A stretch of 64,000 nucleotides of DNA from contig NZ_SJPQ01000002.1 in NCBI RefSeq assembly GCF_007859945.1, positions 474,279 to 538,278 of the forward strand, given 5' to 3'. The stretch is from Pseudobythopirellula maris (GTDB lineage: Bacteria; Planctomycetota; Planctomycetia; Pirellulales; Lacipirellulaceae). Below, one piece after another: positions 10,031-62,242 of this stretch. The notes beneath the pieces are model-generated. The model saw nothing but the letters and a program-made list of their open reading frames with translations, was not told where the DNA came from and searched no databases. How positions within the stretch are numbered: the first letter of the stretch is position 1; each line of letters starts with the position of its first letter. Made by a program: the position numbers and the translations under genes.

Positions 10031-10117
10031 GGCGAGCCGTTCGCGTCAGCGACCGGAGTTGCTTGCGCGCCGCAGAGTGCTCCACGCCGCTCCGGTCGCT
10101 GACGCGAACGGCTCGCC
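10031..10117. repeat. perfect 28-bp inverted repeat (long hairpin)
   Basis: The left arm 10031-10058 (starting GGCGAGCCGTTCGCGTCAGC) and right arm 10090-10117 are perfect complements around a 31-base loop. The right arm ends on the first base of the ogt stop codon. Related single arms occur at 1177 and 2406 and a degenerate pair at 30609-30694. No T-run follows. Confidence 0.8.
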
Positions 10118-32053: not shown

Positions 32054-32343
32054 GCGTTCCCGGCATGGTCCGCTGCGAATCGCATCCGCTGGAGCCACGG
32101 ATTTCACGGATGGGCATGGATTGAAAAAAGGTAGATAGATAGCCACGAAAGGGCACGAAAATACACGATAGGAACTACAGGTAAGACATTCCCCCAGCCG
32201 CTGAGTTGTTCAGGCGCGGTTGAGGCTGGATTCTTCTCGTGCTTTTTCACGTCTCTTTGCTGCCAGCGTCCCTCCGTCCTTGCCATCCGTGGTTCGTCAA
32301 AAAACGCTCGGCCCCCGTCCCCTGGCCCCCGACCCCTCACCGC
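32054..32343. other. PKS upstream region with degenerate cassette-type repeats
   Basis: No gene is seen. CCACGAAAGGGCACGAAAAT (from 32143) and the facing GTCCCTCCGTCC...CCGTGGTTCG (about 32268-32298) resemble the inverted repeats that flank the GxxExxY loci at 60158-60629 and 61877-62234, but nothing coding remains between them. This may be the scar of a third such cassette; the match is weak. Confidence 0.3.
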
Positions 32344-42081: not shown

Positions 42082-42161
42082 GCTCCGCTTACTTCGTGCG
42101 CGGCTCAGACGCGGCGGCTGGCGAGCGAGTGATTCTGAGCCGCGCACGAAGTAAGCGGAGC
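42082..42161. repeat. perfect 28-bp inverted repeat (long hairpin)
   Basis: Arms 42082-42109 (starting GCTCCGCTTACTTCGTGCGC) and 42134-42161 are perfect complements around a 24-base loop. It lies just upstream of the 155-residue hypothetical gene. Its sequence is unrelated to the hairpin at 10031 although the arm length is the same. No T-run. Confidence 0.85.
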
Positions 42162-49971: not shown

Positions 49972-50078
49972 GGAGGGCAAAATAGCCGCCGAGCTACGCT
50001 CGCCGGGAAGAATCGCCGGAAAGTATCGCAGCCTGTGGCGTGGTCCGACGAGCGTAGCTCGTCGGCTATGTGCCCTCC
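49972..50078. repeat. 31-bp imperfect inverted repeat (long hairpin)
   Basis: Arms 49972-50002 (starting GGAGGGCAAAATAGCCGCCG) and 50049-50078 pair with a few mismatches. The right arm also contains the inner palindrome CGAGC-GTA-GCTCG. It sits in the promoter-side gap between the divergent larC and receiver-like genes. Confidence 0.7.
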
Positions 50079-57235: not shown

Positions 57236-57316
57236 GAATGACCAATGACCAAGCCCCAATGACCAAGAAGGCTTGTCAGCGAGTATTGGTCATTGGGGCT
57301 TGGTCATTGGTCATTC
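57236..57316. repeat. perfect 31-bp inverted repeat between purE and purK
   Basis: Arms 57236-57266 (starting GAATGACCAATGACCAAGCC) and 57286-57316 are perfect complements around a 19-base loop. The arms are built from the ATTGGTCATT word. Its place in the purE-purK mRNA could make a stable stem separating the two coding parts. Confidence 0.88.
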
Positions 57317-57847: not shown

Positions 57848-57954
57848 CTGTAGGGAACGCTCTCGGTGGCGTTCCGACCCCCGGCGGGCTGGCTCGCCCC
57901 AACAGGAGAACCTGTACCCGGCGCCAGGAACGCCACGGAGGGCGTTCCCTACAG
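57848..57954. repeat. 28-bp near-perfect inverted repeat (long hairpin)
   Basis: Arms 57848-57875 (starting CTGTAGGGAACGCTCTCGGT) and 57927-57954 pair at 26 of 28 positions around a 51-base loop. It lies between the GlcG-like gene and purE. Confidence 0.82.
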
Positions 57955-58486: not shown

Positions 58487-58725
58487 GTGGGAGGGGTCTC
58501 TGACCCCGATAACGCGCTCTTAGAGCGGTATTCGAATTGGTGTGGACGAGCGGGGAAGCGATTGGCGGCGTGGCGAGGAAGCCGAAGCAGGCAATGCGGT
58601 GCATTGTCGATGCAGGCTGACGAAGCCATGACGCCGATCGCGAGCCGAGCGTCTACACCTATGAGCAAACCGCTCTAGCCTTATGCGGCTCACACACCGC
58701 TATCGGCGTCAGAGACGCCTCCCAC
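58487..58725. repeat. long hairpin split by a MITE insertion
   Basis: Left arm 58487-58513 (starting GTGGGAGGGGTCTCTGACCC) and right arm 58699-58725 pair at 24 of 27 positions. The 157-bp element copy 3 lies in what was the loop of about 28 bases. The hairpin is therefore older than the insertion. Confidence 0.75.
58521..58677. mobile_element. 157-bp MITE-like element, copy 3
   Basis: Identical to copy 1 (9862-10018) except for one base near the right end (CACCTATGAG for CACCAATGAG). TA at both outer ends. It is intergenic, between the GlcG-like gene and the Y-family polymerase gene, inside an older hairpin. Confidence 0.85.
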
Positions 58726-58862
58726 ATCAATCCCTTCTTATTCCCTTACCCGCGCTGATCCGCTCGATCCGCGCTAACCCGCGTCTCATTCTTTGCCCCT
58801 TCTCCAACCCGAGGCTCATTTTTCTTGACGCGGGGGCCGATACCGAAGTAGTGTACGCATGT

Positions 58863-60203
58863 ATGGTAAACGTCGACTGGCTCTTTCTCGACATGAACGC
58901 CTTCTTCGCCTCGGCGGAGCAGCAGCTGCGGCCCGAGCTGCGCGGTCGGCCCGTGGCCGTCGTGCCGACGATGACCCACCGCACCTGCTGCATCGCCGCC
59001 AGCTACGAGGCCCGGCCGTACGGCGTCCGCACCGGCACGAACGTGGGCGAGGCGCTGAGGCTCTGCCCGCGCCTGGTGCTGGTCGAGGCCCGCCACGAGC
59101 GCTACGTCGATCTGCACCACGCGATCATCGCCGCGGTGGAGACCGTGCTGCCGGTCGAAAAGGTCTGCTCGGTCGACGAGATGGTCTGTCAGCTCTCGCC
59201 GCAGCACCGGAGCGTGGCCGAGGCGGTGCTGCAGGGCCAGCGCGTCAAAGAGGCGATCTACCGCGACGTGGGCGAGGCGATGCGTTGCTCGGTCGGGCTG
59301 GCGACGAACCGCTTCCTCGCCAAGGTGGCCAGCAACCTCAAGAAGCCCGACGGCCTCACCGTGCTCACCCGCGAGGGGCTGCCGAAGAGCCTCTACCGGA
59401 TGAAGCTCGACGATTTTCCCGGCATCGCGCGCAACATGCGCGCCCGGCTCGAGCGGCGCGGCGTGCGCAGCGTAAGGCAGCTGTGCGGCCTGAGCCGCGA
59501 CGACATGGTCGACATCTGGGAGAGCGTGCTGGGCGAGCAGTGGTGGCACTGGCTGCGCGGCGACGAGGTTCCCGATCGGCCGACCAAGCGCCGCACGGTG
59601 GGGCACTCGCACGTGCTGCCGCCCGAGCTGCGCACCGACGGAGGATCGCGCGGCGTGATGGTGCGTCTCTTGCACAAGGCGGCCGCCCGCTTAAGAAAAC
59701 TCGAGCACTGGGCCGGGCGGATGGACCTGTCGGTGAGCTACGCCGACGACCGCCCGCGTTGGAAGGTGACGATCAAGCTCGGCCGCTGCCAAGACACGCC
59801 CACGATGCTCCGCGCCTTGGACGAGGCGTGGCAAACCCGCACGCCGAGCGAGGTGCGCCACGGCCGGCCGATCCAGGTGGCGATCACGCTCTACAAACTC
59901 ACCCCCTCGGTGTGCGCCACGCCGTCGCTGTTCGTCGAAGAACGCAAGGCGCTCGAGGCGGCCCGCACGATGGACATGGTCAACGACCAACTCGGCGGCG
60001 GCGCCCTCTACTTCGCGTCGATGCACAACACCAAGGAGACGGCGCCGATGCGGATCGCGTTCACCAACATCCCCAACCTGGAAGACGAGCGCGGCGCGGT
60101 GGGGGGCAGCACGCGCGAAGGGAAAGAAGAGAGACCGCTTATCGCCACGGAGTTGAAGGGAACCACAAAGGAACTAAGGAACAAAGAGAAACGGCATGCC
60201 TGA
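58863..60203 (+). CDS. Y-family DNA polymerase
   Basis: Translesion polymerase of the DinB/UmuC type. The ATG at 58863 gives 446 residues with catalytic Asp10 in LFLDMNAFFASAEQ, the steric region AASYEARPYGVRTGT, and Asp105/Glu106 in CSVDEM. A helix-hairpin-helix block (FPGIARNMRARLERRGV) and a little-finger-like C-terminal domain follow. The last ~25 residues (EERPLIATELKGTTKEL...) are encoded by the left inverted repeat of the GxxExxY cassette, and the stop overlaps the GxxExxY start by eight bases. So cassette insertion probably replaced the original C-terminus. No beta-clamp motif could be identified with confidence. Confidence 0.85.
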   Translation: MVNVDWLFLDMNAFFASAEQQLRPELRGRPVAVVPTMTHRTCCIAASYEARPYGVRTGTNVGEALRLCPRLVLVEARHERYVDLHHAIIAAVETVLPVEKVCSVDEMVCQLSPQHRSVAEAVLQGQRVKEAIYRDVGEAMRCSVGLATNRFLAKVASNLKKPDGLTVLTREGLPKSLYRMKLDDFPGIARNMRARLERRGVRSVRQLCGLSRDDMVDIWESVLGEQWWHWLRGDEVPDRPTKRRTVGHSHVLPPELRTDGGSRGVMVRLLHKAAARLRKLEHWAGRMDLSVSYADDRPRWKVTIKLGRCQDTPTMLRALDEAWQTRTPSEVRHGRPIQVAITLYKLTPSVCATPSLFVEERKALEAARTMDMVNDQLGGGALYFASMHNTKETAPMRIAFTNIPNLEDERGAVGGSTREGKEERPLIATELKGTTKELRNKEKRHA

Positions 60204-60629
60204 GTTTGAACCGATTCCTGAAGGCGATGAGAAGCTGGCGAAAGTGGTTCTCGACGCCGCTTTTCGAGTCCACACGAAGCTCGGACCCGGGCTGCTTGAA
60301 TCGGTGTACGAGCAGTGCCTTTGCCACGAATTGTTGCAGGCCCGCATCCTGTTCCAGTCCCAGCTCATGTTGCCTATTCAATACGACCAGATTGTGATTG
60401 ATGCCGGACTGCGTCTCGACTTGCTAGTCGGAGAAAGAACCGTTGTAGAACTCAAAGCGGTCGAGTCCGTGCTTCCAATCCACAAGGCGCAGCTCTTTAC
60501 CTACCTAAAGCTGACAAAGTGCCGCCTAGGCCTCTTGCTCAATTTTAACGTCCCCCAGTTCAAGCACGGCTTTACGAGAGTCGTTTGCTGACCCTGCTTT
60601 CGTCGTTCCTTTGTTCCTTCGTGGTTCCC
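60158..60629. mobile_element. GxxExxY cassette bounded by inverted repeats (intact)
   Basis: Left 60158-60186 (starting GGGAACCACAAAGGAAC) and right 60601-60629 form a 29-base imperfect inverted repeat (25 matches) around a single GxxExxY gene. The same repeat brackets the decayed copy at 61877-62234. The two cassettes are in opposite orientation. No transposase is present. Confidence 0.65.
60196..60591 (+). CDS. GxxExxY protein (PDDEXK_3 family)
   Basis: The 131-residue product has the name-giving motif G32-L-L-E35-S-V-Y38 within HTKLGPGLLESVYEQCLCHE, then a nuclease-like core: LRLDLLVGERTVVELKAVES (Asp, then Glu-x-Lys of the PD-(D/E)XK fold) and HKAQLFTYLKLTKCRLGLLL. Function is unknown; the fold suggests a nuclease, and such genes are common in planctomycete and verrucomicrobial intergenic repeats. 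The start overlaps the polymerase stop by eight bases. It is bounded by the inverted repeats described for the cassette. Confidence 0.9.
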   Translation: MPEFEPIPEGDEKLAKVVLDAAFRVHTKLGPGLLESVYEQCLCHELLQARILFQSQLMLPIQYDQIVIDAGLRLDLLVGERTVVELKAVESVLPIHKAQLFTYLKLTKCRLGLLLNFNVPQFKHGFTRVVC

Positions 60630-60635
60630 TTCTTC

Positions 60636-61868
60636 TCACCTACCAATCCACCAAGGCATCGCCTCCCACCCCTTCGCGAACACCAGCGACGACTCCGCCG
60701 CGTTCGTGTCGCCGTAAGAATCGAAGCCGTCCGCTTCGATCCCCACGCCGGCCATCACGACCGGCACGTCGCCGTGGGTGTGCTTCTTGGTGGATAGGAA
60801 CGTCGGGTGGTCGGGGCTGATCATCACGCGCCAGTCGTCGCCTCGCTCTTGGAGGGCCTCGACGAGCGGGCCGACGACGTCGGCGTCGATCCGCTCGATC
60901 GCTTTGACCTTCTCGTCCGCGCGGCCCTCGTGCGACGCCTCGTCGGGCGCCTCGACGTGGACACAAACCAGGTCGTACTCGTCGAATGCCTTGATGGCCG
61001 CGCGGCCTTTCGCCGCGTAGTCGGTGTCGAGGTAACCGGTGGCGCCCTCCACTTCGATGCGGTCCCAGCCGACCAGCGCCGCGATGCCGCGCAGCAGGTC
61101 GACGGCCGTGATCATCGCCCCGCGGGGGCCGAACTTCGTGGCGAACGGCTCGAGGCTCGGCGCGCCGCCCAGGCCCCACAGCCAGAGGTGCGTGGCCGGC
61201 GATTTTCCTGCTTTCACGCGGGCCTGGTTCACCGGGTGGTCGGCCAGCAGCGTTTCGGACTTCTCCATCAGTTCGACCAGCACGTCGCCGCCCGGCCCAC
61301 GCGGGTGGGCGCCCTCGACGCTCAGATCGGTCCAGTCGTGCGGCGCCTCGGTCCGGGTGTCGGTCGAGAAGGGCGAGGGGAGCTTCTCGCCACGCCACAA
61401 CAGCAGGTTGCGGTAGCTCACGCCCGGCACGAACTCCAGGGCGCCACAGAACCGCGGGTCGCTCGCCAGTTGCTCCTGGCAGTCTGCCAAGATCGCGGCG
61501 CCCTCGGTCGAGGTGATGTGGTCGGCGGTGAAGTCCTTCATCACCGGGCCGTCGTCGCCGTGGGTGATCGTCACGAGGTTGCAACGCACGGCCCAGTCGC
61601 TGGGCCCGAGTTCGATCCCTTGGGCGGCCGCCTCCATCGGCGCCCGGCCGGTGAAGTGGGCATGCGGGTCGTAGCCCAGCAGCGACAGGTTGCCGATCTC
61701 CGACCCGGCCGGCAGAGCCTTAGGCGTGTGGCAGGCCCGCGCGACGACCCCCGCCGCCGCGAGCGCGTCCATGTGCGGCGTGCGGGCCGCCTCGAGCGGC
61801 GTCTTGCCGGCGAGAGAATCTTGCGGCTCGTCGGCTGCGCCGTCGGGGATGATGATTGCGTACTTCAT
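60636..61868 (-). CDS. apgM: cofactor-independent phosphoglycerate mutase, archaeal type
   Basis: Interconverts 3- and 2-phosphoglycerate in glycolysis. The 410-residue protein starts KYAIIIPDGAADEP, with the metal-binding Asp in PDG, and has LPAGSEIGNLSLLGYDP carrying the nucleophilic Ser, RCNLVTI, GWDRIEVEGATGYLDTDYAAK, VHVEAPDEASHEGRA and ISPDHPTFLSTKKHTHGDVP. These Asp/His motifs are the alkaline-phosphatase-like metal site. I use the ATG at 61868. The gene lies between the intact and decayed GxxExxY cassettes, both of which abut it. Confidence 0.92.
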   Translation of the reverse strand: MKYAIIIPDGAADEPQDSLAGKTPLEAARTPHMDALAAAGVVARACHTPKALPAGSEIGNLSLLGYDPHAHFTGRAPMEAAAQGIELGPSDWAVRCNLVTITHGDDGPVMKDFTADHITSTEGAAILADCQEQLASDPRFCGALEFVPGVSYRNLLLWRGEKLPSPFSTDTRTEAPHDWTDLSVEGAHPRGPGGDVLVELMEKSETLLADHPVNQARVKAGKSPATHLWLWGLGGAPSLEPFATKFGPRGAMITAVDLLRGIAALVGWDRIEVEGATGYLDTDYAAKGRAAIKAFDEYDLVCVHVEAPDEASHEGRADEKVKAIERIDADVVGPLVEALQERGDDWRVMISPDHPTFLSTKKHTHGDVPVVMAGVGIEADGFDSYGDTNAAESSLVFAKGWEAMPWWIGR

Positions 61869-61876
61869 AGAGAGAT

Positions 61877-62234
61877 GAACCACGAAGGAACAAAGGAACG
61901 ACGGGAAGCACTGGCAAGCAGACTACTCGGGTGAAACCGTCTTTGAATTGTGAGAAGTTGAAGTTCAGTAGGAGGCCCAAACGACACGTAGTGAGTTTCA
62001 GGTAAGTAAACAGATTGGCCTTGGGGAAGGGGACCCGAATGTTCCTCAACTCCTGACAAAGGCAATGCTCGTAGACCGCCCCCAATGAGCCCGGTCCCAA
62101 TTTGGTGTGCAACCGGAATGCCGCGCCGAGTAGGCAGTCGCGTACCTCTCGTCGCCCTCAGGAATCGGCTCGTACTCGGGCACAGTTTTCCCCCGCAAAG
62201 AGTTTCTCGTCGTTCCTCCGTGCCGTCGTGGTTC
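61877..62234. mobile_element. GxxExxY cassette, decayed copy
   Basis: Left 61877-61903 (starting GAACCACGAAGGAACAAAGG) and right 62208-62234 pair at 23 of 27 positions and match the repeat around the intact cassette. Between them lies a broken GxxExxY gene in reverse orientation. Confidence 0.6.
61915..62183 (-). pseudogene. broken GxxExxY gene
   Basis: Reading the minus strand, PEYEPIPEGDE matches the start of the intact protein. A frameshift follows, then HTKLGPGSLGAVYEHCLCQE and, after a jump, NLFTYLKLTTCRLGLLLNFN and GFTRVVC. About 45 codons corresponding to the nuclease core are deleted, the motif Glu is replaced (GSLGAVY), and the stop codon is lost. The product would have no PD-(D/E)XK residues, so it is not functional. 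Confidence 0.85.
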
Positions 62235-62242
62235 AACAAGCC

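Follow-up and report, generated by a model that had tools for sequence, protein, structure and literature searches.

Short tandemly repeated repetitive (STRR) sequences of heterocystous cyanobacteria are intergenic tandem repeats of heptamers, and integron gene cassettes are units with one small gene each and hairpin-forming ends. REPIN-RAYT systems consist of doublets of repetitive extragenic palindromic (REP) sequences together with a Y1 tyrosine transposase (RAYT; Bertels and Rainey 2011, PMC3116915). Intervening sequences carrying the S23/IVP protein are known from the 23S rRNA of Coxiella and Leptospira (PMC4990558), and miniature inverted-repeat transposable elements (MITEs) of Thiomargarita were proposed to derive from elements with a PD-(D/E)XK_2 (Rpn/YhgA) nuclease (PMC4853749). 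For the TAACTGA heptamer repeats of Beggiatoaceae, it was suggested that a protein binding them might be the mobile element (MacGregor 2015, PMC4679880). Here we describe cassettes from the planctomycete Pseudobythopirellula maris in which a gene of the GxxExxY family, found in the annotation of very many bacteria but with no function assigned to it, stands between inverted repeats (arms). They were found in a stretch of 64,000 nucleotides (assembly GCF_007859945.1, contig NZ_SJPQ01000002.1, positions 474,279 to 538,278; hereafter the window). The reading that we favour, with slightly more confidence than doubt, is that they are very small mobile elements of the REPIN-RAYT kind, partnered by the PD-(D/E)XK nuclease GxxExxY instead.

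An initial annotation of the window had reported an intact GxxExxY gene and a decayed one in opposite orientation, bracketed by the same inverted repeat, and both statements hold (coordinates are given in the table). The intact gene product scores 137.8 bits against TIGR04256 (E 2e-40, cut-off 35). The decayed copy is recovered by tblastn on the minus strand as two fragments in different frames, in which residues 12-53 and 93-131 of the query survive; the catalytic D75, E85 and K87, lying within the lost residues 54-92, are therefore gone. The arms of cassette 1 (60150-60187 / 60600-60637) are complementary at 84% across 38 nt and those of cassette 2 (61876-61912 / 62199-62235) at 81% across 37 nt. 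Between the two cassettes, the inner arms share an identical stretch of 27 nt, and this 27-mer, GAACCACGAAGGAACAAAGGAACGACG, has two copies in the window and none in 100 shuffles. The gene-less pair near 32140-32300, which had been noticed as well, does have a motif of the same kind as the cassette arms; as an inverted repeat it is at chance level (score 14 vs a null mean of 12.9 and a 99th percentile of 23). A different gene-less hairpin (57236-57316) has arms (GACCAATGACCAAGCCCC) of a family common with an IVP cassette (L080) elsewhere in the P. maris genome. A DinB-like reading frame (58683-60203) crosses the left arm of cassette 1 and terminates a short way into the cassette; its original end has apparently been lost to the insertion and replaced.

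The score above the curated cut-off and the motif (here GLLESVY) place the protein in the GxxExxY family (TIGR04256/PF13366), and it matches PF13366 (PDDEXK_3) as well. In a set of 26 sequences, residues D75, E85, K87, Q99, E35 and Y38 do not vary and Y103 hardly does, and D75, E85, K87 and Q99 are kept in 64-65 of the 68 sequences of a wider set. The AlphaFold2 model (predicted local distance difference test score 92.7) has a PD-(D/E)XK fold, for which VIA-align gave Cas4 SSO0001 as the best match (Z 9.5, 100 residues, root-mean-square deviation 4.3), followed by restriction enzymes and the Hjc resolvase (Z 6-7). A Foldseek search of the model against the PDB returned no match at E <= 0.001, and thus the fold assignment rests on the sequence profile, the conserved residues and VIA-align. 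With the D, ExK and QxxxY residues placed on the conserved fold of the RecB/Cas4-like superfamily branch, GxxExxY is expected to be a nuclease of the RecB/Cas4 sort and is predicted to be active. Two other readings were considered and rejected: a defence system (PADLOC gave only a weak Cas4 match, E 0.018) and a phage origin (no matches of a Bacteroides GxxExxY query in 50,697 phage records; best E 0.12 in PHROGs). For the algal Chrysochromulina parva virus BQ1, a GxxExxY gene is listed with those for replication and repair (PMC12085832).

The arms are dispersed through the P. maris genome (5.07 Mb, 6 contigs; our census of gene-less and gene-bearing hairpins covers 1.26 Mb). The cassette-arm pattern has 54 matches in the whole genome vs 3 for the reversed control, and the sites read out are mostly convergent pairs, 44-215 bp apart and gene-less, and resemble the hairpins of REPINs or MITEs. 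A second hairpin family, CCACGAATACGCGCGAATAA (25 matches in the genome vs 0 in the control), is often nested in the loops of these gene-less pairs, sometimes together with a third. Three further GxxExxY genes have their own distinct arms (ACCACAGAGAGCACAGAG, ACCGCCAAGACGCCAAG and GCCACRAAAAGGCAC), and all four GxxExxY arm types recur as gene-less hairpins, these three in the surveyed part. All five S23/IVP (PF05635) genes of P. maris lie between inverted arms of another kind, e.g. GACCAATGACCAAGCCCC or GGGAGGTGAGAGGTCGGAGG. No transposase gene was found between the same ends among the gene-bearing pairs of the surveyed 1.26 Mb.

GxxExxY is present in 70 of 149 genomes of the planctomycete phylum, and IVP in 48 of 99. 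For the comparison of loci, 300-bp flanks were searched, inverted-repeat scores of at least 14 were counted, and shifted windows of the same loci served as controls. Inverted arms were found at 51 of the 68 GxxExxY loci of this phylum (50/67 without one duplicate) vs 23/1601 (1.4%) of the controls, and at 21/28 IVP loci vs 4/672 (0.6%); most GxxExxY homologues are therefore flanked, where the initial annotation would have taken mostly unflanked homologues as a refutation. It had also regarded equal flanking of unrelated genes as evidence to the contrary; SUKH genes have arms at 1 of 26 loci, the one being that of P. maris. Genes for Y1 RAYT have inverted flanks at 17/24 loci, with REP palindromes instead of GxxExxY-type arms, so that the relation of GxxExxY to its arms is much like that between RAYT and REPs. 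The two gene families differ in their arms: a period of 8-10 nt is seen in 45/51 GxxExxY arms and a period of 7 never, whereas the period is 7 in 16/21 IVP arms (mean lag-7 self-match 0.66). A strict two-unit motif, inverted on both sides, occurs at 38/67 GxxExxY loci, 1/28 IVP loci and 1/928 controls. Across genomes the arm pattern has 2736 matches vs 66 in the control, and at least four matches are present in 48/70 genomes with GxxExxY vs 11/79 without it (odds ratio 13, p 5e-12). Outside the phylum, GxxExxY loci have clear arms in Gemmatirosa, Bernardetia, Sphingomonas and Bacteroides and partial ones in Treponema, and arms, for the most part heptameric, are present at all 8 IVP loci of cyanobacteria, Azospirillum and Riemerella.

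Arm type and protein type are linked. Arm similarity increases with GxxExxY protein similarity across genomes (Mantel p 0.016), and the nearest protein neighbour in another genome shares the unit type in 25/49 cases vs 11.9 expected (p 0.0005), whereas arms do not resemble each other more within one genome than between genomes. Arm type thus tracks the GxxExxY sequence and not the host genome, which indicates that arms and gene travel together.

Occupied and empty junctions point in the same direction. In relatives of the same family, the content of the two junctions beside apgM varies: GxxExxY cassettes that differ from one another, nested hairpins with no gene, or nothing at all. In a planctomycete pair of one genus the cassette of one genome corresponds to a single leftover arm in the other. 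The radA-FAD junction of Bacteroides contains a cassette in B. finegoldii, B. acidifaciens, B. fragilis, B. neonati, B. rodentium and two uncultured species; close relatives such as B. congonensis, whose radA is 98% identical to that of B. finegoldii, have none there. Between the occupied lineages GxxExxY is only 53-60% identical, and radA 91-95%; given this far greater divergence, cassettes have probably inserted there on more than one occasion. In Sphingomonas parapaucimobilis (L271, 1513-1941), fabD and fabG of the fab operon are separated by a GxxExxY cassette, whose right arm overlaps with the annotated reading frame. For an IVP cassette on Nostocales conjugative plasmids (L268 / L424) there is a near-exact empty site: the cassette interrupts AAAAAGTAATTAACAAA, and GTAAT stands at either end (a single case). 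Trichormus variabilis is occupied at this plasmid site and Nostoc linckia NIES-25 is empty, while in Nostoc sp. C052 one arm alone is found there. Another IVP cassette, on a plasmid of Picosynechococcus sp. PCC 7003 (L420, 1480-1836), separates cas10 from cmr3 in a type III-B CRISPR operon, and this junction is empty in pAQ6 of PCC 7002. The initial annotation had proposed a search for empty sites: occupied and empty GxxExxY junctions exist, and near-exact empty sites were found for IVP cassettes only. Taken with the flank frequencies, the SUKH control and the tracking of arms with genes, these junctions make the mobility of the repeat-gene-repeat unit well supported.

We propose the following. 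Each element is a pair of inverted arms, each of two to four tandem units of 8-10 nt (consensus ~ACCAC-RRA-K, N1-3, CRC-RRA-K); most elements are gene-less hairpins, and some have a GxxExxY gene in the loop. The arms are most likely recognised by GxxExxY at the DNA level, perhaps in the form of an extruded cruciform or a single-strand hairpin. The protein would cut at them, and host repair or replication may then make copies of the element, both in cis and in trans. A parallel set of elements, with arms of 7-nt units, is partnered with the four-helix S23/IVP proteins. The anatomy, its generality, the linkage of arms and gene, the occupied and empty junctions and the conservation of the catalytic residues are computed results. 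The earlier idea that GxxExxY could be the mobilising enzyme is consistent with its invariant residues, the matching gene-less hairpins and the association across genomes; from these sequence data we infer arm recognition, cleavage and transposition by the protein.

Several observations weigh against this proposal. The arms of GxxExxY sometimes frame SUKH and DUF1877 genes and two unknown open reading frames (in the surveyed 1.26 Mb), and 7-nt arms frame a macro-domain gene in P. maris. Some draft genomes are rich in arms and have no GxxExxY (G039 with 115 matches, G051 with 58, G079 with 42), and no divergent PDDEXK_3 above threshold was found in such genomes. Twenty-two genomes with GxxExxY have fewer than four matches of this particular pattern, and at two of the seven loci from other phyla, those of Fusobacteria and Prevotella, similar units are direct and not clearly inverted. 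Empty sites that are exact, or nearly so, were obtained for IVP and not for GxxExxY. The target duplications that the initial annotation suggested looking for did not emerge consistently: direct repeats are not in excess at 18 P. maris elements, and at GxxExxY loci there is a weak excess for k=5 (p 0.045). Finally, the linkage of arm and protein type could stem from joint inheritance without recognition.

The chief rival, which we consider unlikely, takes the hairpins as a general vehicle for single genes moved by some host or mobile-element enzyme, with GxxExxY, IVP, SUKH, DUF1877 and macro-domain genes as cargo. It would account for the other genes framed by the same arms and for the arm-rich drafts without GxxExxY. 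However, those other genes are occasional, whereas GxxExxY and IVP are regular (about 75% flanked vs the 1/26 of SUKH) and each has its own arm grammar. Furthermore, RAYT does not explain the arm counts once GxxExxY is known, since its presence adds nothing among GxxExxY genomes (p 0.73).

Quite improbable in our view is an RNA element like an intervening sequence, whose arms would be transcript stems removed by RNase III, with RNA-mediated or passive spread. In its favour, rRNA intervening sequences have complementary termini as their bounds and IVP as their protein (PMC4990558), and there are insertions within operons or tight gene pairs (fabD-fabG, cas10-cmr3, radA-FAD). But GxxExxY resembles DNA nucleases, and no rRNA lies near the 20 IVP and GxxExxY loci tested, by which insertion into rRNA was rejected. 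Neither concerted nor compensatory evolution of paired arms was detected in the ACCACGAAGGAAC family (0.798 within vs 0.794 between elements, p 0.36; 23 rows, three of which are shifted registers of one element). Paired arms being no more alike than arms of different elements, the pairing itself is apparently not maintained; one would expect this if the ends are recognised by their sequence, and not if they are stems that pairing preserves.

No better placed is a homing-like spread, in which GxxExxY would cut gene-less hairpins and its gene would be copied into their loops with the arms as homology. Hairpins nested in hairpin loops and the independent occupation of one junction in related species agree with it, but arms vary among the GxxExxY copies within a genome and go with the protein and not with the hairpins already there, and the junctions found empty contained either a single arm or no hairpin at all. 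Scarcely credible, despite the inverted ends, the dispersed short copies and the Y1 transposases present in the P. maris genome, is a derivation of the hairpins as non-autonomous MITEs from an ordinary insertion sequence or RAYT, because the repeats at the 24 tested RAYT loci, where present, are REP palindromes and not these arms, which with the missing effect on arm counts rules out RAYT as their owner, and because no consistent target duplication was found.

Returning to the nuclease-partnered elements, there is a fair chance that a REPIN-like element with GxxExxY is a new class. The wider claim, which we hold tentatively and with rather more doubt than belief, is that of an autonomous class of mobile DNA whose sole enzyme is the ~130-residue GxxExxY acting on tandem-unit inverted arms and sustaining gene-less hairpins in trans, plus an independent S23/IVP class on 7-nt arms that would also explain STRR, TAACTGA repeats and rRNA intervening sequences. 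In the literature searched, which did not include subscription journals, so that an earlier description is possible, no paper links GxxExxY with repeats and none prints these repeats as bacterial elements. If the reading is true, one of the commonest unexplained kinds of bacterial repeat gets an owner, transposase-free DNA mobility by a compact PD-(D/E)XK nuclease becomes testable, and there is a concrete hypothesis for the role of the S23/IVP proteins of rRNA intervening sequences, a long-standing question. A genetic test system is at hand in the Bacteroides species, some with and some without a cassette at the one junction.

Table. Cassettes and related hairpins in the window (positions from its first nucleotide).
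Feature	Position	Strand	Remarks
Intact GxxExxY gene	60196-60591	+	131 aa; PD-(D/E)XK nuclease-like; D75, E85-x-K87, Q99-x3-Y103
Cassette 1, left inverted arm, GAAGGGAACCACAAAGGAACTAAGGAAC	60155-60182	+	repeat search, arm census; weaker complementarity over 60150-60187
Cassette 1, right inverted arm	60605-60632	-	repeat search, arm census
Cassette 2, arm, TGAACCACGAAGGAACAAAGGAACGACGGGAA	61876-61907	+	inner 27 nt equal to cassette 1 right arm
Decayed GxxExxY pseudogene	61915-62183	-	two tblastn fragments in different frames; middle with D75/E85/K87 deleted
Cassette 2, other arm	62204-62235	-	repeat search, arm census
Gene-less hairpin, arms of 7-nt units, GAATGACCAATGACCAAGCCCCAATGACCAA	57236-57316	.	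31/31 complementary, 19-nt loop; census
Possible decayed gene-less pair, CCACGAAAGGGCACGAAAA-type motif	32105-32291	.	inverted repeat not significant

Hairpins of other types are present in the window at 10031-10117 (GGCGAGCCG...), 42082-42161 (GCTCCGCTTACTTCGTGCGC...) and 49982-50069 (ATAGCCGACGAGCTACGCTCG...), the last of which resembles the REP repeats of RAYT genes, and the inverted repeat CTGTAGGGAACGCYCTCSGTGGCGTTCC at 57848-57954 comes from another dispersed family of the P. maris genome. The macro-domain gene of P. maris (L217, C1:1643184-1643801) lies within nested pairs, the outer of 7-nt units and the inner REP-like.

Among the known systems, DDE insertion sequences and their MITEs are set apart by a fixed-length target duplication, which the 18 P. 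maris elements do not have. Integron cassettes likewise have one small gene per unit and hairpin-forming ends, but here arms are found on both sides of scattered single units, which argues against an integron cassette; no array was seen, an integrase not having been searched for. The Thiomargarita MITEs are also miniature inverted-repeat elements with a suspected PD-(D/E)XK source, of another nuclease family (PF12784) and with 10-bp direct repeats at their ends. The TAACTGA and STRR repeats are intergenic heptamer tandem repeats, as the IVP arms are, although the text consulted of PMC4679880 ties the TAACTGA repeats neither to IVP nor to gene-flanking inverted arms. With the 23S rRNA intervening sequences the present elements share a small open reading frame in the loop of a long stem, and IVP also partners the 7-nt arms here; unlike them, the present loci are intergenic or intra-operon and not in rRNA, and GxxExxY is unrelated to IVP. 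From REPIN-RAYT they differ in that the GxxExxY arms are tandem 8-10-nt units and not REP palindromes, and that the enzyme inside is a PF13366 PD-(D/E)XK protein and not the HUH/Y1 transposase (PF01797) that defines RAYT, which was not found in any cassette. Nevertheless, both comprise short repeats in inverted pairs that form hairpins, mostly gene-less and dispersed in intergenic DNA (54 sites vs 3 in the control here), and in both a small nuclease gene is flanked by the same repeats at a similar frequency (17/24 for RAYT, 51/68 for GxxExxY).

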